A stretch of DNA of 10,952 bases from Desulfobulbaceae bacterium (lineage in GTDB: Bacteria; Desulfobacterota; Desulfobulbia; Desulfobulbales; Desulfobulbaceae). Where the stretch lies: contig SKJK01000191.1 of assembly GCA_007121995.1 (NCBI GenBank), positions 1 to 10,952 of the forward strand, given 5' to 3'. This document shows, piece by piece, positions 1,973 through 10,952 of this stretch; position 1 is the stretch's first letter; every line of letters begins with the position of its first letter. The notes below the pieces were generated by a model. That model made no database searches and was not told the origin of the DNA. It was given only the letters and a program-made list of their open reading frames with translations. The position numbers and the translations under genes were made by a program.

Positions 1973-3427
1973 TCACTTCTCCTGAACACCTTTTGCTATA
2001 CGGTCGCCTGTTTCCTGGTCGATATTGCGCCAGTATTCCAAGGCTTTCTTCAGAACCGGTTGCGAAACTCCATCTTTGAGGTGCCCGACAACATTTGCTA
2101 CAAGCCGCTCACGTTGCGCATCGTCCATCACTTCTCGCACCAGGGTGCCTGGTTGAATAAAATCATCATCGTCTTGGCGTAACGTATAGGCACTGCGCAT
2201 GAATTCGCCGTTGGCACTCCAAGTCGCATCTTCTGGATAACGCTCAGCATCTGCTTGAGGCCCTCCCTTGGAGTTTGGCTTATATACGGGGTCGGAAACA
2301 TTGTCCATCCGCATGGTTCCACCCTTGCTATAGCTATGCACCGGACACTTCGGCCGATTGACTGGAATTTGCTTATAGTTGACTCCCAAGCGTGCTCGAT
2401 GGGCATCTGCGTATGATATCAAACGTGCCAATAACATTTTATCCGGGCTGGGGCCGATTCCAGGGACCAGGTTGTTTGGTTCAAAAGCTGCCTGCTCAAT
2501 TTCCGTATGAAAATCGGCCGGATTACGGGTGAGGGTTAATCGTCCGACTTCCTGAAGCGGGTAATCCCCATGCGGCCAGACCTTGGTGAGATCAAATGGA
2601 TTGAATCGATATGTCTCTGCATCCTCAAAAGGCATGATCTGAACTTTCAGAGTCCAGCTCGGATGGTCTCCCTGCTTGATTGCATTAAACAGATCACGAC
2701 GATGGTAGTCAGCATCGGTGCCGGCCAGACGATCAGCTTCTTCCTGCGTGAGAAAATCAATACCTTGATCTGTCTTGAAGTGGTATTTCACCCAGAAACG
2801 TTTTCCTTCGCCATTGACCCACATGTAGGTGTGGCTGGTATATCCATTCATATGCCGATAGCTTTTCGGAACACCCCGATCACTCATCAGAATGGTGACC
2901 TGATGCGCTGTTTCCGGCAAGAGGGTCCAAAAGTCCCACTGCATATCGTGGTCGCGTAAGCCATTATCGGCTCGCCGCTTTTGTGAATGAATAAAATCCT
3001 GAAATTTCATGGGGTCGCGAACGAAAAATACCGGAGTATTGTTGCCAACCATGTCGTAGTTGCCTTCGCTGGTATAAAATTTAAGGGCGAAACCACGCAC
3101 ATCCCGCCAGGTATCGGGGCTGCCGCTCTCGCCAGCAACGGTGGAGAAGCGAGCCAGCACATCTGTTCTGGTTCCTGGCTGAAACAGCGCTGCTTTCGTG
3201 TATGCGCTGACGTCCTGAGTCACTTCAAAGTGCCCGAAGGCTCCAGACCCTTTGGCATGAGGCTGGCGATCCGGTATCATTTCGCGGTTAAAATTGGCCA
3301 TCTGCTCCATAAGGTAGTGATCATGAAACAAAATCGGACCATCCTGGCCAACTGTCAGTGAGAATTCATCACTTGATACAGGTATTCCAGCGTCGTTGGT
3401 TGTAGGTTTTCGGGTACTTTCTTTCAT
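1973..3427 (-). CDS. katA: Monofunctional haem catalase, small-subunit type (484 aa)
   Basis: Converts hydrogen peroxide to water and oxygen with haem b; normally a cytoplasmic tetramer. The frame shows the catalase landmarks in order: distal catalytic histidine in HAKGSGAFG (H57), the substrate-pocket asparagine in [12 protein letters not shown] (N130), and the proximal haem-ligand tyrosine in [14 protein letters not shown] (Y339, with R335). The length (484 aa) and absence of a C-terminal flavodoxin-like domain fit the small-subunit class, many of which bind NADPH. The frame stays open upstream to an ATG at 3490, but ATG 3427 is preferred because AGGAGG sits 7 nt before it and the extra 21 residues do not resemble catalase. 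By eye its base composition is more AT-rich than the neighbouring phosphoketolase and acyl-fusion genes, so it may have a different history. The gene symbol rests on family membership only. Confidence 0.97.
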
Positions 3428-3434
3428 AATGAAA

Positions 3435-3440
3435 CCTCCT
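3435..3440 (-). promoter_or_regulatory. Ribosome binding site deciding the catalase start
   Basis: On the minus strand AGGAGG precedes ATG (3427) by 7 nt. This is a consensus Shine-Dalgarno and is the reason for choosing this start over the longer in-frame ATG at 3490, which has no comparable site. Confidence 0.8.
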
Positions 3441-3534
3441 GTTTCTTCTCTCAAAATAACTGACAATAAACGAACAGATCTATTATTCACAAGGTGAGAT
3501 ACAATATCAATGATGAAAAAAAGAGTATAAAAGA

Positions 3535-3549
3535 GGTAGTCTTTCTACC
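3535..3549. promoter_or_regulatory. Small dyad upstream of catalase
   Basis: GGTAG and CTACC form 5-bp perfect arms around a 5-nt centre (TCTTT). It lies 108-122 bp upstream of the catalase start, adjacent to a TATACT-like hexamer on the minus strand. I do not recognise a PerR, OxyR or Fur consensus here. It could be an operator or a leader hairpin; evidence is weak. Confidence 0.25.
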
Positions 3550-3624
3550 CGTTAAAACTGAATGACGGGCATGGTGGTTGAGGTTTGTTTAATATCCCCT
3601 GACGCACGTTTTTTTACATCCGCT

Positions 3625-3661
3625 CCAATCGGCAACCGTGCAGAGACCAATTGGCAACCGT
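3625..3661. repeat. Direct repeat of a 15-bp box with 22-bp period
   Basis: CCAATCGGCAACCGT at 3625-3639 recurs as CCAATTGGCAACCGT at 3647-3661, 14 of 15 identical, separated by 7 nt. The 22-bp period is close to two helical turns, so a protein bound to each box would sit on the same face of the DNA. It lies about 200 bp upstream of the catalase start and just before the TTGACA at 3686. A paired operator is the simplest reading. No matching regulator is encoded in the window. Confidence 0.6.
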
Positions 3662-3680
3662 TCGCCTGCGAAGCATTGCA

Positions 3681-3958
3681 CAATGTTGACAAGAACTGAG
3701 GGTGCAGGTCTTTTATTTTTTCTGAGTAAAGGTTTCAGCTTTTTTTGGTATGAAGGTTACGAGCGAAGAGAAAGCAGGGCACAATGATCAATTAACAATG
3801 ATTTAGCCGGCAGGTTATGTGTTTCCTTGGTCCCGATGTGAGAGGGCAGAAAGGCAGAAAGGGTGTAACCGTCATGTTCCAGCTTTCCTCGGCTGTGCGA
3901 AATCACTGCTGAAAGCCGATCATGAAGTAAAAAGCTCTGCGCAAAAGCACCACTACTC
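3681..3958 (+). repeat. Leader copy A: degenerate copy of the CheB/CheR promoter, leader and first codons
   Basis: This stretch aligns with 7931-8211 in the same orientation. The core 3731-3958 matches 7981-8211 at about 175 of 228 positions (about 77%, counted by eye) with only three gapped bases. The 50 bp before it aligns without gaps at about 60% and includes TTGACA at 3686-3691, shared with the other copy. The most conserved part is the last 22 nt (3937-3958), identical to 8190-8211. Homology stops abruptly at 3958, where AT-rich sequence begins. The copy precedes the cytochrome gene start by about 145 bp, so it may act as a leader for that gene or be a remnant of a lost gene. Confidence 0.85.
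3922..3958 (+). pseudogene. Stump of a second CheB/CheR fusion gene (first 12 codons)
   Basis: The 37 bases match the first 37 of the intact gene at 8175 in 33 positions, start codon aligned to start codon. Here codon 3 is TAA instead of AAA, and the aligned Shine-Dalgarno has changed from GGAGG to GAAAG, so it cannot be translated as in the intact gene. Nothing resembling the CheB domain follows. The best explanation is a duplicated gene whose body was deleted. An alternative is that only the promoter and leader were copied, the first codons coming along by chance. Confidence 0.6.
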
Positions 3959-4054
3959 GTATAAGATAATTTTTCTATCATAAATATATGCTTTATATTT
4001 CTATTGTATATTTTTGTAATTATTGGAATTTATAGTACGAATTATTTTTCGAAT

Positions 4055-4072
4055 GATACTGATCACAGTATC
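4055..4072. promoter_or_regulatory. 18-bp dyad (candidate operator) upstream of the cytochrome gene
   Basis: GATACTG and CAGTATC form perfect 7-bp arms around ATCA, 31 bp before the ATG at 4104, in otherwise AT-rich sequence. The core TGATCACA vaguely recalls CRP/FNR-superfamily half-sites, but spacing and bases do not match a consensus I can name. Its position, overlapping where a promoter should be, suggests a repressor or activator site. No RNA-polymerase hexamer pair could be assigned with confidence. Confidence 0.45.
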
Positions 4073-4103
4073 TTGTTTATAAGTTTAAACAGCAGGAGGA
4101 AGT

Positions 4104-4646
4104 ATGAAAACTCGCAACAGGTACAACTTGACAATTTTATTGCTGCTGCTTTTTTTCTTGATCCCCGCGCTGGTCTGGGCTGTGGATAAAGCCAAAGGAA
4201 AGCCCGAAGTTGAAGAGAACTTTCTTTCCTACATAACCGAGAGAGGAGAGGATTTTCTTTCTTATATCACTGAAGTCAAGCCATATAAGGAGTGGGACCT
4301 GTGGCCGGGTACTGAAAAAATGTACGAAGGCACGGAGCCGCACGGAGTACTGCTCACCACCTACGTCAATAAGCAGGCCCTGAAGGGAATTGAGCAAGGT
4401 ATGCTGGAACAGGGGATGCCGGATGGTTCCATAATAGTAAAAGAGAATTATTCCGCTGACAAAGAACTCATAAATGTGACCAGCATGTACAAAAGAAAAG
4501 GGTATAATCCCGAAGCCGGAGACTGGTTCTGGATTGTGCACACCCCAGACAAGGAAGTCGATAACGCCGGAAAGATTGGAATGTGCATTAGCTGTCACAG
4601 CCAGATGGAGCACCGGGACTATCTCTTTATCGGGCCTCATAGATAA
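4104..4646 (+). CDS. Exported cytochrome P460-family c-type haem protein (180 aa)
   Basis: Residues 1-26 form a signal peptide (basic start, leucine-rich core, cleavage near VWA|VD), so the mature protein is periplasmic. Residues 58-176 match the P460 fold: YKEWDLWPG, MYEGTEPHG, the MPDGSIIVKENY stretch at 105-116, MYKRKGYNPEAGDWFW at 128-143, and a single C-terminal haem c site CISCH at 161-165. Known family members are the hydroxylamine-oxidising cytochrome P460 of Nitrosomonas and the NO-binding cytochromes c'-beta. Most homologues are uncharacterised, and the lysine-haem crosslink typical of true P460 cannot be confirmed here. An 11-residue repeat (FLSYITE at 40-46 and 51-57) lies between signal peptide and domain. 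The start has AGGAGG 4 nt upstream. It appears monocistronic, with a dyad upstream and a terminator-like hairpin 8 nt after the stop. Family call is secure; function is not. Confidence 0.88.
   Translation: MKTRNRYNLTILLLLLFFLIPALVWAVDKAKGKPEVEENFLSYITERGEDFLSYITEVKPYKEWDLWPGTEKMYEGTEPHGVLLTTYVNKQALKGIEQGMLEQGMPDGSIIVKENYSADKELINVTSMYKRKGYNPEAGDWFWIVHTPDKEVDNAGKIGMCISCHSQMEHRDYLFIGPHR
4221..4274. repeat. Internal 33-bp-period repeat in the cytochrome gene
   Basis: Codons 40-46 and 51-57 both encode FLSYITE, 11 codons apart. The two 21-nt stretches differ at five positions (four third-position changes plus an isoleucine codon change), all silent. Silent-only divergence suggests an older duplication in which the peptide was kept. 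It forms an acidic, probably helical linker before the haem domain. Confidence 0.7.
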
Positions 4647-4653
4647 TTGTACT

Positions 4654-4681
4654 GCAAACCAGCTGGAGGTTGCTTTATTTG
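4654..4681 (+). terminator. Rho-independent terminator candidate after the cytochrome gene
   Basis: GCAAACC (4654-4660) pairs with GGTTGC (4668-4673) with one bulged A, around a 7-nt loop, directly followed by TTTATTTG. It begins 8 nt past the TAA stop at 4644-4646. The stem is only six pairs, so efficiency may be modest. It separates the cytochrome gene from the acyl-fusion gene, implying separate transcripts. Confidence 0.5.
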
Positions 4682-4797
4682 TAGTGGATTTCTTGCTCCG
4701 TGCCGAGCCTGCCCACTGTTCTCATTTCCTGCGGCTTGACTCTTCTCACAATGGTGCTGGTACTTGAAAATTTCGACTTGATTTCAGGTGGTACGTT

Positions 4798-7542
4798 GTG
4801 ACTATCGACAGCGTTCAGGCAGAAATGGACGGAAGTTCGGAACAGACTATGAAAGAATTCAAAACATTACAGGACTTGATGCAAAGTTTTCGCCAGCGGG
4901 GAGACAAGGAATGTCTTGTCCAGTTCGGCGACGACAAGACGCACCGCTTCTCTTATGTCGAGCTCTACGATAAGGTTACCAGCTTAGCCGGAGGACTAGC
5001 CGCTCAGGGAATCGGACCTGACAAAGTGGTGGGTGTTATAGCTGAAACCCGTTACCAGAGCATCTTGATTTCCCTGGCCGTAATCCACAGCGGTGCGACA
5101 ATAATGCCCATCGACCCTCAGTTCGATGGGGAAAATCTTGCCCATGTCCTCAACGATGCCTCACCCGCTCTGCTGTTTGCACCACAGGGACAGGCCAAAC
5201 GAGTGAAGGAGCTTAACCTCGAACGTAATCCGGATATTCTTTTCACTGATCGTGATGAGAGGCAAGATAAAAGCTGGTTCTCCATAGCTGACGCGAGTTC
5301 CGGTACCCTGCCGGAAATCGATGCCCGAGACACTGCCGCACTCTTTTATACCTCGGGCACTACAGGCAAACCCAAAGGGGTGCCGCTCTCGCACGCCAAT
5401 CTTGTCTTTCAGCTGAATGCCCTTATCAAATCCGGTATTGTTAGCGAAGGCGATCGGCTGCTTCTTCCCCTGCCGCTGCACCATGTCTATCCTTTTGTGG
5501 TAGGCATGCTCGCCCCGTTAGCTCTGGGATTAGCGCTCATTCTTCCTCGTGCTCTCTCGGGCACCCAGATGGCACGTGCTATCCATGATGGCGAAGCCAC
5601 GCTCATCGTTGGTGTGCCCAGACTCTATGAAGCTTTGGTTTCCGGGGTCGAGAGCCGTATCCAAGCCGCTGGATACACTGCTCAAATGATCGGCGGCCTT
5701 ACCCTGAAGTTGTGTATGTTCTGCCGCCGAACTCTTCATCTGCGGATTGGCAAATTACTGCTCGGCAAACTGCACCAGCAGTTTGGCAAGCAGCTTAAGG
5801 TTCTGGCATCGGGTGGTGCTCCGCTTGATCCGGAACTCGCCTGGAGGCTGGAGGGGCTGGGCTGGAAAGTGGCTATCGGCTACGGACTCACTGAAACATC
5901 ACCCATTCTCACTATCAATCCTCCGGGATCCGGCCGCATGCAAAGCGTAGGCAAGCCGCTCTCAGGGGTTGAGATCCGCATTGATGAAGGCGCTCGGCCG
6001 GAGGGAGAGGGACATCAGCATGAAGGAGGTGAAATTCAGGCCAAGGGCCCGGGAGTATTTGCCGGATACCGCCACCTGGATGAAAAGACCCGGGACACTT
6101 TCACCGATGATCAATGGTTTAAAACCGGCGATTTAGGTCGCATAGAAGACGGCTGGCTCATGGTTACGGGCCGGGTCTCGACCATGATTGTCACCCGTGG
6201 CGGAGAAAACGTGCAGCCCGACGAGGTGGAACATGCCATTGATGCCCACCCTTATATTAAGGAAGCAGGTGTTATGGCCCAGGATGGCGAGATCAAAGCC
6301 CTGATTGTTCCCCACACAAGCAATATTCGTTCGGACGGGGCAGAGGTTAATGAGGCAGCACACCGGGCGGTAAGTGAGGCCGTAGGCCAGCTTCCTTCCT
6401 ACATGCAGCCTACGGAGGTGGTGGTCTCACACAACTCTATCGAACGTACGCGTCTTGGCAAAATCAAGCGGCATAAACTCAAAGAGCACTACCGGCGCGC
6501 TCAGGAAAAGGACGAGGATGAAGGGTTGGCGCCGATGCCGCCGGAGCGTATGAACGCCGAGGACCGCATGCTCCTTGACGATCCGCGAGCATCTGCCACA
6601 TGGGATCTGCTGGTCAAACGCTTTCCCAAACGCGGTCTTTCTCCCGATGCAGATCTGGGCAGCGACCTCGGGGTGGACTCCATTGGCTGGTTGAATCTGT
6701 CCACGGAACTTCTTGGACAAACCGGAATAGATCTTGACGAGGAGGCAAGGGTCCGCATCAAGAGCGTCCGCGACCTGCTTAAAGAAATCCAACAGGAGAA
6801 AGAAAAAACCGGAAAGGAGCATGCTCATCCGGTGGAAAATCCAGAAAAATTCCTGGACGACGAGAGCGAACAGTGGCTGAGCGACCTTTCCGGAAGCCAA
6901 CGCGCTACGGCTCGGCTGGTTCACTGGTTTGTTAAAGTGTTCTCTCTGGTCTGGTTCCGTGCCGGCACCGAAGGAGTCGGCAACATTCCGGCAGATAAAC
7001 AGGTGGTCTTTGCTCCCAACCATGCAAGCTTTCTCGATCCTTTCGTTCTGGCGGCGCTGATTCCCTATAATGTGCTGCGGCAGACTCAGGTTGCAGGGCT
7101 GGCTGACGCAGCCTTTGCCAATTCCTTCACCACCTTCTTCGCCCGTCTGGCCCGCGCTTTCCCGGTGGATCCGTTGCGTAAACCAGGTACAGGTTTGGCT
7201 TATGGCTCGGAGGTCCTGAAAAGAAACCGCAGCCTGATCTGGTTTCCCGAGGGTGCGCGTTCACGTACCGGTCGACTTGGCGCCTTCCTTCCCGGTCTTG
7301 GCATGATTCTGGTCAAAAGGCCTTGTCTGGTAGTGCCGGTCTATATCGCCGGAACCCGTTCAGCCATGCCGCCGGGCAGCCTTTTGATCCGACCGAAAAA
7401 GATAACTGTCTATTTTGGCGAACCGGTTTCTTCCGAAGAACTGCGAAAAGAAGGCGAAGGTGAAGATCCGCACCAATGTATCATGGATGCATTGAAACAG
7501 CGGGTGGCGGAACTCGGCAGGCGGGCAGGAGAAGAGGCATGA
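4798..7542 (+). CDS. Acyl-activating AMP ligase - acyl carrier - PlsC acyltransferase fusion (914 aa)
   Basis: Three modules are visible. An ANL-superfamily adenylation domain spans about 20-575, with YTSGTTGKPKG at 184-194, GYGLTETSP at 361-369, KTGDLG at 442-447 and the catalytic-lysine motif GKIKRHK (K555). An acyl-carrier-like domain spans about 590-665, with LGVDSIGW placing the phosphopantetheine serine at S628. A PlsC-type glycerolipid acyltransferase covers about 700-910, with NHASFLD (H742, D747) and FPEGARS (816-822). The likely job is to activate a free fatty acid with ATP, load it on the built-in carrier and pass it to a lysophospholipid or similar acceptor at the membrane face. 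E. coli Aas joins similar ligase and acyltransferase functions in the opposite order and uses separate ACP. The GTG start has AGGTGG 6 nt upstream; in-frame ATGs at 4825 and 4849 lack good sites. A TTGACT at 4736 may be its -35. Acceptor and chain length are unknown. Confidence 0.92.
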   Translation: MTIDSVQAEMDGSSEQTMKEFKTLQDLMQSFRQRGDKECLVQFGDDKTHRFSYVELYDKVTSLAGGLAAQGIGPDKVVGVIAETRYQSILISLAVIHSGATIMPIDPQFDGENLAHVLNDASPALLFAPQGQAKRVKELNLERNPDILFTDRDERQDKSWFSIADASSGTLPEIDARDTAALFYTSGTTGKPKGVPLSHANLVFQLNALIKSGIVSEGDRLLLPLPLHHVYPFVVGMLAPLALGLALILPRALSGTQMARAIHDGEATLIVGVPRLYEALVSGVESRIQAAGYTAQMIGGLTLKLCMFCRRTLHLRIGKLLLGKLHQQFGKQLKVLASGGAPLDPELAWRLEGLGWKVAIGYGLTETSPILTINPPGSGRMQSVGKPLSGVEIRIDEGARPEGEGHQHEGGEIQAKGPGVFAGYRHLDEKTRDTFTDDQWFKTGDLGRIEDGWLMVTGRVSTMIVTRGGENVQPDEVEHAIDAHPYIKEAGVMAQDGEIKALIVPHTSNIRSDGAEVNEAAHRAVSEAVGQLPSYMQPTEVVVSHNSIERTRLGKIKRHKLKEHYRRAQEKDEDEGLAPMPPERMNAEDRMLLDDPRASATWDLLVKRFPKRGLSPDADLGSDLGVDSIGWLNLSTELLGQTGIDLDEEARVRIKSVRDLLKEIQQEKEKTGKEHAHPVENPEKFLDDESEQWLSDLSGSQRATARLVHWFVKVFSLVWFRAGTEGVGNIPADKQVVFAPNHASFLDPFVLAALIPYNVLRQTQVAGLADAAFANSFTTFFARLARAFPVDPLRKPGTGLAYGSEVLKRNRSLIWFPEGARSRTGRLGAFLPGLGMILVKRPCLVVPVYIAGTRSAMPPGSLLIRPKKITVYFGEPVSSEELRKEGEGEDPHQCIMDALKQRVAELGRRAGEEA

Positions 7543-7930
7543 ACGGGGATTGTCATTCGTATTCGTATTGTCTTCAGCCAAAACTCTTTCCCTTCATTCG
7601 TGTCCATTCAGAAACGGTACTCTTCTCCTGACTCTTTGTTGCGCTGTCAAATCTAATCCTGTAATAATACCCGGATCCGTGAGCGTTTGTCCGTGCGTCA
7701 GCTTTGTTGTTCGTGACTGTTCGATTAAAGTAAACTTTATCGGACGGTTACGGGCCATGAAGATGGCGTGCGGACGAACGCCCCGAAGGGCAGCGGGTGA
7801 GACATATTGCAATGAAAATCGCCGCATTTGTAATTTGATTGCAGCAAAATATATATCTAAAGCAAGAGCCCGGCTGCCGTCTCGGATTCAAGTAGTGTCC
7901 GCCTGCTTTTTCAGCTGTGAAAACCTGCGT
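7543..7930. other. 388-bp stretch without a credible gene
   Basis: After the acyl-fusion stop there is no clear terminator and no frame with coding character. Features seen: a short ATTCGT direct repeat at about 7555-7566; an AATCCTG...ATCCGTGAGCG stretch (about 7654-7686) resembling the hairpin after the catalase; overlapping small hairpins GGCGT/ACGCC (7765-7769, 7778-7782) and GCCC/GGGC with a CGAA loop (7780-7791); and a region near 7805-7855 with GCAAT/ATTGC complementarity. These could belong to a structured RNA, but I do not recognise a family. Confidence 0.6.
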
Positions 7931-7935
7931 CAATA

Positions 7936-7964
7936 TTGACAAAAATGAAGAGTCTAGATAGTTT
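7936..7964 (+). promoter_or_regulatory. Candidate promoter of the CheB/CheR gene
   Basis: TTGACA at 7936-7941 is a perfect -35 hexamer and is conserved in copy A (3686-3691). With 17-bp spacing the -10 would be TAGTTT (7959-7964), a poor match that keeps only the first, second and last consensus bases. In copy A the aligned hexamer is TCTTTT, poorer still. The conserved -35 is suggestive; the weak -10 keeps confidence low. Confidence 0.35.
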
Positions 7965-8000
7965 ATTGCTCACGATAAACGGTTTCAGTTTTTATTTGCC

Positions 8001-8057
8001 ATGAAGATTATGAGCGAAGAGTCCGCAGAGCACAATAGAGGATTAACAAGGGCTTAA
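8001..8057 (+). other. 18-codon mini-ORF in the CheB/CheR leader (copy A counterpart 3750-3806)
   Basis: In copy B ATG 8001 opens MKIMSEESAEHNRGLTRA and stops at TAA. In copy A ATG 3750 opens MKVTSEEKAGHNDQLTMI and stops at TAG at the same codon. Ten of 18 residues agree and there is no gap. Neither has a Shine-Dalgarno, and most base differences change the residue, so selection for a peptide is not evident. A leader peptide is possible but unproven. Confidence 0.3.
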
Positions 8058-8174
8058 CAGGTAGGTTATATATCCACTTGATCCCGATGTCAGAGCGAGC
8101 AGAAGGGCAGAAAGGGGTGAACAGGTGCGTTGCTGCTTTCCTCGGTTTTACGAGATGACTCCTGGAGGCAGACC

Positions 8175-10952
8175 ATGAAGAAAAAAAAACTGCGCAAAAG
8201 CACCACTACTCTGCCGCAAATTGTTCAGCCGGTGCAACCGCAGCAGCCGTCTTTTCCCATTGTCGGTATCGGCGCTTCCGCCGGCGGCCTGGTCGCCTTT
8301 GAAGCCTTTTTTTCCGGCATGCCCGCTGACACCAATTTGGGCATGGCCTTTGTGCTGGTGCAGCATCTGGCTCCGGATCACAAAAGCATCCTCACCGAAC
8401 TCATCCAGCGCTACACCCGCATGCAGGTCTTCGAGGTTGAAGATGGTATGCAGGTCGCGGTCAACTGTATTTACATCATCCCGCCCAATCGCGACATGGC
8501 CTATCTCAACGGCAAGCTCCTGCTGATGGAGCCCACGGCACCGCGTGGCCAGCGGTTGCCTATTGATTTCTTTTTTCGTTCTCTGGCCCAGGACCAGCGG
8601 GAACGGGCCATTGGTATCGTGCTGACAGGCACCTGTAGCGATGGCACGCAGGGCGTCCGGGCCATCAAAGGCGAAGGCGGCATGGTCATGGTCCAGAGCC
8701 TTGATTCAGCCGAGCACGATGCCATGCCGCGCAACGCCCTGGCTACCGGCATGGTGGACTTTGAACTGCCGCCGGCTGAAATGCCCGCCCAACTCATTGC
8801 GTATGCAGCCCATGCCTTTGGCATGCCCCCACTGGACACTGCAGCCCCTGAACTTGGGACCGGTCATACTCTGCAAAAAATCTTTCTCCTCCTGCGCGAC
8901 CAGACCGGACACGATTTTTCCTCCTATAAACCAAGCTCTATTCACCGGCGGATCAAACGGCGCATGGCCCTGAACCAGATCGAAACCATTGACAACTACA
9001 TCAAGTACCTGCAGCAAACGCCGGACGAAGTGGCAGTACTCTTTCGCGACCTGCTTATCGGAGTTACAAATTTCTTTCGCGATCCCGATGCGTTCAATGT
9101 GCTCAACCAACAGGCTATTCCGCAACTGTTTGCCGACAAACCCTCGGGAGCCACTATTCGCGTCTGGGTGCCTAGTTGCTCCACCGGTGAGGAAGCCTAT
9201 TCCATCGCCATCCTTCTCCAGGAACAACAGGAGTCCTTACACCAGAGTTACAAGGTGCAGATTTTCGCCACCGACATTGACAGCCGCGCCATAGCCGCGG
9301 CACGAATCGGTCTGTATCCGGCCGGGATTGCCATCGACGTTACCCCGGAACGACTGGCCCGATTTTTCACCCTTGAAGACAACGGTTCCTATCTGGTCAA
9401 CAAAAACATCCGCGACCTGCTGGTCTTTTCCGAACAGGATGTGATCCGTGATCCGCCTTTTTCCAGAATTGATCTCATCAGCTGCCGCAACCTGCTCATA
9501 TACCTCAACAGCGATCAACAGAAACGACTCATTCACCTGTTTCACTATGCACTCAACCCTGGCGGCTTCCTGTTTCTCGGTACCTCGGAAACCGTGGGCG
9601 ACATGGGAGACCTGTTTGCGGTACGGCACCGCCAGTCGCGGCTGTATCAGCACAAAAGAGATGTACATGGTATGCATCGCCTCACTTTGAACCAGTTTCT
9701 TCCCAACATGACAACAGATCCGGTCCACCCCCAATCCGCTGGTCCGAAAAACCCTTTTCCGCAGAAAAGACTGGTCCGTGAACTGACCGAGCGGACGATC
9801 CTGCAGCAGGTCGCTCCGGCTTGTGTTCTCGTTAATGATCAGGGTGATATTCTCTACATCCACGGCCGTACCGGCATGTACCTGGAGCCGGCTTCGGGAG
9901 AGACAGGCAACAACAACATTGTCAAAATGGCCCGGGAAGGATTGCAACACGAATTGGCCACATCCCTGCATAAAGTAATTCAGGGAAAAAAGACGGAGCG
10001 CTGCCCTGGCCTGCTGGTCAAAACCAATGGCGACTCCACCCTGGTCAACCTGACCATTCGTCCGGTGTTCGCCGGCACGGCAACGGTTGAGCAATTCCTC
10101 TACCTGGTGATCCTCGAGGAAGCGCCGTCTTCCGTGGACCAGGACCAATTACGGCTGAGAAGCCGGCTCATCTTTGGCGACCCAGATACTGCAGATCCGG
10201 ACATTGAACCACGTATTGCGGCCCTCAAACAGGAACTGCGGATGAAGGAAGAATACCTGCAGACATCCAACGAAGAGCTGAAATCAGCCAACGAGGAAAT
10301 GCAATCAATCAATGAAGAGTTGCAATCCACCAACGAGGAGATGGAAACCTCCCGAGAAGAGCTTCAATCAGTCAACGAAGAATTGACTACAGTCAACGCC
10401 GAGCTGCAGAATAAAATTCAGGAACTGTCCGGTGCCAATAACGACCTGAACACTCTCCTGGCCGGCCTGGGCATTGCTACCATCCTGGTGGATCATCAGC
10501 TCCGTATCCAGCGTTTCACCCCTGCCGCCACCAGGATCATCAATCTGATCGCCGGCGATATCGGTCGCCCGGTGGGCCATATTGTCTCCAACCTGGTCAA
10601 GTACGAAAACCTGGTAGCAGATACCCAGGCTGTGCTCGATACCCTGAGACCCATCGAGAAAGAAGTGCAGGCAACAGACGGCACCTGGAACCAGCTGCGT
10701 ATCTGGCCCTATCGCACCACGGAAAACATCATCGAAGGCGCGGTGATCACCTTTGTAGAGTGCACCGAGGTCAAGAAAACCCAGGATGCCCTGTGCCTGA
10801 ACGAAGAACGCATGCGCGTGGCCCTGCAAACCGTGCCCATTGTCATTGCCAACCAGGACAAGGCATTGCGCTACACCTGGATCTGCAATGAAGCTCCGTT
10901 TCCCGCATCCCGTATCCTCGGCAAGACCGATGCCGACCTCTTGCCACCCGAC
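8175..10952 (+). CDS. CheB-CheR-coiled coil-PAS signalling fusion, first 926 residues (C-terminus beyond window)
   Basis: Cytoplasmic sensory fusion. A CheB methylesterase domain spans about 27-215 with its catalytic triad intact: S35 in GASAGG, H64 in QHLAPDHKS, D156 in LTGTCSDGT. A CheR methyltransferase domain spans about 235-495: NFFRDP at 299-304, the SAM-binding stretch WVPSCSTGEEAYS at 331-343, and ISCRNLLIYL at 435-444. A PAS-like domain follows at about 540-650, then a long coiled coil (about 685-765) with seven exact NEEL-type heptads at 699-747, a second PAS at about 765-865, and the start of a third from about 876 ending in LRYTWICN...LGKTDADLLPPD. That last pattern commonly precedes a histidine kinase of the HisKA_2/HWE type, so a kinase probably lies to the right. 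There is no CheB receiver domain at the N-terminus. GGAGG lies 6 nt before ATG 8175. No chemotaxis genes are nearby, so a role outside flagellar chemotaxis is likely. Its leader is duplicated at 3681-3958. Confidence 0.95.
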   Translation, partial: MKKKKLRKSTTTLPQIVQPVQPQQPSFPIVGIGASAGGLVAFEAFFSGMPADTNLGMAFVLVQHLAPDHKSILTELIQRYTRMQVFEVEDGMQVAVNCIYIIPPNRDMAYLNGKLLLMEPTAPRGQRLPIDFFFRSLAQDQRERAIGIVLTGTCSDGTQGVRAIKGEGGMVMVQSLDSAEHDAMPRNALATGMVDFELPPAEMPAQLIAYAAHAFGMPPLDTAAPELGTGHTLQKIFLLLRDQTGHDFSSYKPSSIHRRIKRRMALNQIETIDNYIKYLQQTPDEVAVLFRDLLIGVTNFFRDPDAFNVLNQQAIPQLFADKPSGATIRVWVPSCSTGEEAYSIAILLQEQQESLHQSYKVQIFATDIDSRAIAAARIGLYPAGIAIDVTPERLARFFTLEDNGSYLVNKNIRDLLVFSEQDVIRDPPFSRIDLISCRNLLIYLNSDQQKRLIHLFHYALNPGGFLFLGTSETVGDMGDLFAVRHRQSRLYQHKRDVHGMHRLTLNQFLPNMTTDPVHPQSAGPKNPFPQKRLVRELTERTILQQVAPACVLVNDQGDILYIHGRTGMYLEPASGETGNNNIVKMAREGLQHELATSLHKVIQGKKTERCPGLLVKTNGDSTLVNLTIRPVFAGTATVEQFLYLVILEEAPSSVDQDQLRLRSRLIFGDPDTADPDIEPRIAALKQELRMKEEYLQTSNEELKSANEEMQSINEELQSTNEEMETSREELQSVNEELTTVNAELQNKIQELSGANNDLNTLLAGLGIATILVDHQLRIQRFTPAATRIINLIAGDIGRPVGHIVSNLVKYENLVADTQAVLDTLRPIEKEVQATDGTWNQLRIWPYRTTENIIEGAVITFVECTEVKKTQDALCLNEERMRVALQTVPIVIANQDKALRYTWICNEAPFPASRILGKTDADLLPPD

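Follow-up and report, generated by a model that had tools for sequence, protein, structure and literature searches.

The window analysed here is a stretch of 10,952 nucleotides, contig SKJK01000191.1 of a Desulfobulbaceae bacterium (C159:1-10952), from a metagenome-assembled genome (MAG; G000) of 1,775,034 bases in 369 contigs that is 56.8% complete. Two similar sequences, copy A and copy B, lie in the same orientation on either side of a cytochrome P460 family gene and a gene for an AMP-binding/carrier/acyltransferase fusion, and copy B runs into a CheB/CheR-PAS fusion gene (cheB/cheR). The product of the latter gene has CheB, CheR_N, CheR and PAS domains, so that copy B forms the 5′ end of a gene of the kind named "two-component system CheB/CheR fusion protein" at its source; nothing unusual was seen in the window's gene itself. 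A Shine-Dalgarno sequence lies directly 5′ of ATG 8175, and the orthologous gene in a second genome, G007, which is probably that of Desulfobulbus alkaliphilus, has the same start. The cheB/cheR start is thus likely to be ATG 8175 and not the TTG 8130 of the mechanical list of open reading frames (ORFs), and therefore copy B most likely ends in 37 coding bases. We consider it highly probable that copy A is a decaying remnant of a duplicated cheB/cheR 5′ end, comprising the leader and about 12 codons, and that copy B represents the leader and start of a gene whose reading frame is unbroken up to the contig end.

Gapped local alignment of copy A (3681-3958) with copy B (7931-8211) scored 198, far beyond the best of 1000 dinucleotide-preserving shuffles (29, with a mean of 18.8), and repeat finding recovered the pair as two ungapped families, D2 (3840-3958 and 8093-8211, 77%, spacing 4253) and D3 (3740-3844 and 7991-8095, 74%, spacing 4251). 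The two copies are 76% identical over 3728-3958 and 73% identical over 278 query positions (BLAST, own genome), and a weaker similarity covers 7931-7981, where 32 of 51 columns are alike. An earlier note on this DNA had described same-orientation copies of about 230 bp with about 77% identity, along with a weaker resemblance in the 50 bp further upstream, and had asked for an alignment against shuffled sequence; both parts of that description were recovered. Farther 5′ than 3681 and 7931, the similarity does not rise above chance; leaving out the insertion at 7670-7892 does not change this (a score as high is reached in 210 of 500 plain shuffles). The region 5′ of cheB/cheR in G007 has no homology above shuffles to the regions 5′ of A or B. 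The earlier note had spoken of non-coding leaders. The leader is indeed homologous, but the last 37 bases are coding sequence, namely the first codons of the CheB/CheR gene.

Over these 37 coding bases, copies A and B are identical at 33, and their similarity closes with 22 identical bases and stops inside codon 13. Copy A reads MK*KALRKSTTTRIR, compared with MKKKKLRKSTTTLPQ in copy B, the third codon of A being TAA. The Shine-Dalgarno sequence is GGAGG in B and AGGAG in G007 as opposed to GAAAG in A. The broken frame and changed Shine-Dalgarno sequence of copy A, together with the AGGAGG that the P460 gene has of its own, therefore point to a broken cheB/cheR 5′ end and not to a leader-start cassette of P460. 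Accordingly, the working promoter-leader-start cassette envisaged in the earlier note does not fit a copy with a lost Shine-Dalgarno sequence, a stop at codon 3 and similarity ending in codon 13. Copy A thereby combines the features of a pseudogene fragment, i.e., homology that continues into coding sequence, a broken frame and start, and a related copy before an orthologue (in one genome only), and we saw no present function for it. Over 7982-8174, private changes number 24 in A, 11 in B and 19 in G007 (three sequences only), and A has more of them than B when G007 serves as the reference (binomial p 0.041).

Table 1. Features of the window discussed in the text, in order of position
Feature	Position	Strand	Details
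Copy A	3681..3958	+	Probable decayed duplicate of the leader and initial codons of cheB/cheR; relic ATG at 3922, in-frame TAA at 3928-3930
AT-rich stretch	3959..4103	+	145 bases, 22.8% GC; from the end of the copy A similarity to the P460 gene
Terminator-like site	4055-4072		Consensus match only
Cytochrome P460 family gene	4104..4646	+	Own AGGAGG directly 5′ of ATG
AMP-binding/carrier/acyltransferase fusion gene	4798..7542	+	
MITE-like element	7670..7892	.	Dispersed element, here decayed; hairpin of ~100 nt, ends related to CCTGRATCCGTGA; lies 3′ of the acyl gene and 5′ of copy B, with no relation to the A/B repeat
Copy B	7931..8211	+	Leader 7931-8174, then the opening 37 bases of the CheB/CheR coding sequence
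CheB/CheR-PAS fusion gene	8175..10952	+	Probable start ATG 8175; 926 codons within the window, frame still open at the contig end

Only the two copies, A and B, were found in the own genome. With copy A as the query, and with no more than two first-look candidates scored in each genome, matches were found in two out of 257 genomes of the order (the own genome included): the own genome itself and G007. Copy B as the query matched three out of 95 genomes, again counting the own one: the same two and G058. The 34 bases that match in G058 form the beginning of an unrelated 181-aa ORF and are not a real copy. Among the remaining fetched loci, including the two other cheB/cheR genes of the own genome (C277 and C27), no leader homology was detected at E<=0.1 besides the window's own loci and those of G007, in a database that left out L001-L004, which repeat the window. 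When C277 and C27 were rechecked alone against the leader, the best E-values among the matches listed were 0.53 and 0.62, respectively. In G007, the single copy is located directly before the orthologous cheB/cheR ORF, whose protein is 94% identical. A search of the genome and its relatives in which copies stand only before CheB/CheR genes was what the earlier note had named as the mark of gene duplication, and the only real copy found off this contig does stand directly before the cheB/cheR orthologue. This finding supports the rearrangement that the same note had offered as one possibility, with a lost paralogue and an insertion or deletion.

The cheB/cheR ORF of G007 (L087:14960-17191) ends at 743 aa, of which ~735 aa are alignable, inside a repeat region near the contig end, possibly because of an assembly or frame problem. 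Within the window's own cheB/cheR gene, positions 10258-10404 contain six 42-base matches in 21-base steps, a region that appears coiled-coil-like by translation. Another genome of the same genus, G010, has an exact 120-base stretch in common with Desulfobulbus sp. GS12.

The comparison with G007 also bears on the age of the pair. In the 3′ part of the leader (8037-8174), B and G007 differ at 30 of 133 aligned columns, gaps aside, the corresponding count for fourfold sites in the adjoining cheB/cheR gene being 39 of 344. The leader changes about twice as fast as the silent sites of cheB/cheR, and therefore no constraint on the leader is needed. Copies A and B differ in the same part at 40 of 136 columns, slightly more than B and G007, and therefore the duplication looks old; by this yardstick, the A/B split would date from about the time of the split from G007 or earlier. 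The alternative posed in the earlier note, that leaders this similar should be either recently duplicated or constrained, is contradicted on both sides by these counts. The closest pair changes along the alignment: in 7931-7981 it is A and B (32 of 51 alike, compared with 22 of 49 for A and 21 of 49 for B against G007), and in 8037-8174 it is B and G007 (103 of 133 alike).

The two genes between the copies have different relatives. For P460, no match at E<=1e-10 was found among the 22 other genomes of the genus, several of which are incomplete, and matches with 35–47% identity occur in 13 out of 50 genomes from other genera of the family. In a sample of 395 genomes of the phylum, nine other genomes match at E<=1e-40 (45–56% identity). 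The best species-named match is from Desulfonatronum thiosulfatophilum (72%), and the best named relatives of the gene belong to Desulfonatronum and Desulfonatronovibrio, which are soda-lake genera, suggesting that P460 was gained horizontally. The acyl fusion likewise has no match at E<=1e-120 among the same 22 genomes; three other genomes among the 257 of the order reach E<=1e-200 (43–47%), and the best named match belongs to a Desulforhopalus MAG (89%). Since P460 and the acyl fusion have their best named relatives in different genera, we read them as separate gains. No mobility domain was identified in the five window proteins scanned.

The locus can be most plausibly explained by a tandem or segmental duplication of the cheB/cheR 5′ end, which would have come first in the order that we infer. 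The body of copy A would then have been lost or would never have been copied, the P460 and acyl genes would have come to sit between the two 5′ ends, and the MITE-like element would have landed 5′ of B at some point. Such a history resembles a known type of event, partial gene duplication with pseudogene decay, in that the homology crosses untranslated and coding sequence, stops inside the gene and is accompanied by a broken start region. It differs from that type in two respects: the remainder of the gene copy was not detected, and genes not found in other genomes of the genus lie between the copies.

Several observations weigh against this explanation. In the four gaps 3422-3700, 3940-4104, 4640-4860 and 7500-7940, no remnant of a cheB/cheR body or pseudogene past codon 13 was detected apart from the 19-base match to the gene start that was already known, the next best E-values being 0.36 for DNA and 1.7 for protein, and therefore the duplication may never have included the whole gene. 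The 24 private changes of A are not distinct from the 19 of G007 (p 0.54), so that A has decayed faster only relative to B. The coding bases are only weakly more alike than the leader (33 of 37 and 141 of 190, Fisher p 0.056), and the bin 8191-8210 is identical at 20 of 20 positions, slightly above the prediction for steady decay. A TTGACA hexamer is kept near the 5′ ends of both copies (3686 and 7936), and therefore a promoter there is possible. Three sequences can neither root the duplication relative to the species split nor settle the order of events. Finally, the counts of copies come from an own genome of limited completeness, from a genus in which several genomes are incomplete, and from a 257-genome search restricted to two candidates per genome.

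The alternative that fares best is a variant of the duplication of the cheB/cheR 5′ end and differs from it only in the order of events, so that the probabilities of the two overlap and our estimates for the several readings do not sum to one. In this variant, which we regard as unlikely, DNA carrying a related cheB/cheR 5′ end together with the P460 and acyl genes recombined by a single crossover into the chromosomal cheB/cheR 5′ end, leaving partial direct repeats. Such an integration accounts well for same-orientation partial repeats that flank genes not found in other genomes of the genus, as well as for the sharp end of A inside codon 13. However, efficient recombination needs copies more alike than 73–76% identity, and copies this unlike would place the event in the distant past. 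One incoming segment also sits poorly with P460 pointing to Desulfonatronum and the acyl fusion to a Desulforhopalus MAG, and with five scanned proteins that show no mobility domain.

A quite different possibility, which the earlier note had raised as a regulatory leader shared by two unrelated genes, is that copy A is retained as a promoter and untranslated RNA controlling P460, so that the haem protein and the CheB/CheR sensor would be co-regulated. Copy A does lie 5′ of P460 in the same orientation as B, 73–76% identity is kept across ~280 bp, the TTGACA hexamer is present in both copies, and 4 of 36 predicted pairs in a three-sequence consensus fold are changed on both sides. Nevertheless, the covariation term of that consensus is only -0.32, the folding z-scores of +1.16, +1.23 and +1.02 are no better than those of shuffles, and no Rfam match at E<=1 was found in the window; on these three counts, with little covariation in three sequences, a regulatory RNA was rejected. 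A shared sigma-70 promoter was likewise rejected, since the scan of the + strand found no full sigma-70-like site inside either copy, although TTGACA is kept in both. Regulatory RNAs in cis are expected before different genes in many genomes, and the repeat was found in two out of 257 genomes of the order (at most two candidates scored per genome), on the window contig and before the cheB/cheR gene of G007. A retained leader is also difficult to reconcile with a leader that differs more than the fourfold sites of cheB/cheR. Moreover, copy A keeps dead, useless cheB/cheR codons, has lost its ribosome-binding site and ends 145 bases short of a P460 gene that has its own AGGAGG, the AT-rich stretch with its terminator-like site lying in between. 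We therefore regard control of P460 by copy A as improbable. Slightly less probable again is a captured promoter-leader, in which a truncated cheB/cheR duplicate would have put its control region before the horizontally gained P460, which would then have joined the CheB/CheR sensor regulon in a Desulfobulbus lineage.

A misassembly of the contig across the repetitive element at 7670-7892, which would make A and B false neighbours, appears very improbable; it would concern the neighbourhood and not the nature of copy A, and it is compatible with A as a cheB/cheR remnant. The contig does run through an element that is present many times in the own genome. On the other hand, the longest exact match of the window element to 29 other compared copies is 45 bases, a partial test in which 9 of the 29 came from the own genome, out of its 34 other matches. 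In addition, A and B have similarity only to one another and to G007, so that both halves of the contig are tied to one lineage. The least likely reading, which takes the A/B sequence itself for a mobile or repetitive element, has two same-orientation copies on one contig in its favour and can be practically dismissed given the detection of only three copies, two of them in the own genome and the third in G007, in the 257 genomes of the order, the location of B and the G007 copy before orthologous genes, and the lack of terminal inverted repeats (scores of 12 and 11 compared with 99th percentiles of 20 and 15 in 500 shuffles).

The decayed element at 7670-7892, 5′ of copy B, comes from a family that resembles miniature inverted-repeat transposable elements (MITEs). 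Members of the family have 13-bp terminal inverted repeats, CCTGRATCCGTGA, and a typical length of 218-219 (7 of 14 retained end pairs). Target duplications of 5 bp were also seen by eye, and all five bases are alike in 7 of the 14 end pairs, which had been retained for 4 or 5 matching bases (4 being accepted only for pairs shorter than 300 bases). The hairpin has a DNA z-score of -4.07, and 1 of 200 shuffles was as good. Sites of the end motif number 735 in G007, 74 in the own genome, 72 in G001 and one in G020, with none in G010, G011 and G006, whereas the reversed motif used as a control has no site in any of these seven genomes. The family is thus similar to known MITEs in its short length, terminal inverted repeats, target duplications, high copy number and lack of a visible transposase gene. 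It differs in that no autonomous partner transposon with the same ends was found among the 14 retained end pairs in the 107,454 bases examined, most of which were stretches picked for known end sites and not a random sample. Two papers in which the 13-base motif occurs are unrelated, judging by title and the beginning of the abstract. The copy in the window has decayed ends, and its flanking target bases are alike at 3 of 5 positions.

A further trace of this family is a 30-base miniature at 1914-1943, between the phosphoketolase and catalase genes, in which both ends of the element are fused, with ATAAT flanking on each side. Near the start of the phosphoketolase gene, there is also a tandem 21-base repeat (1695-1736) with 95% identity.

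By itself, the finding on copies A and B carries little weight, as it records one old duplication and its decay in a Desulfobulbus lineage and removes a candidate regulatory element. The MITE-like family, with its hundreds of end sites in G007, is worth more than the A/B finding and may be a source of rearrangements in this lineage.

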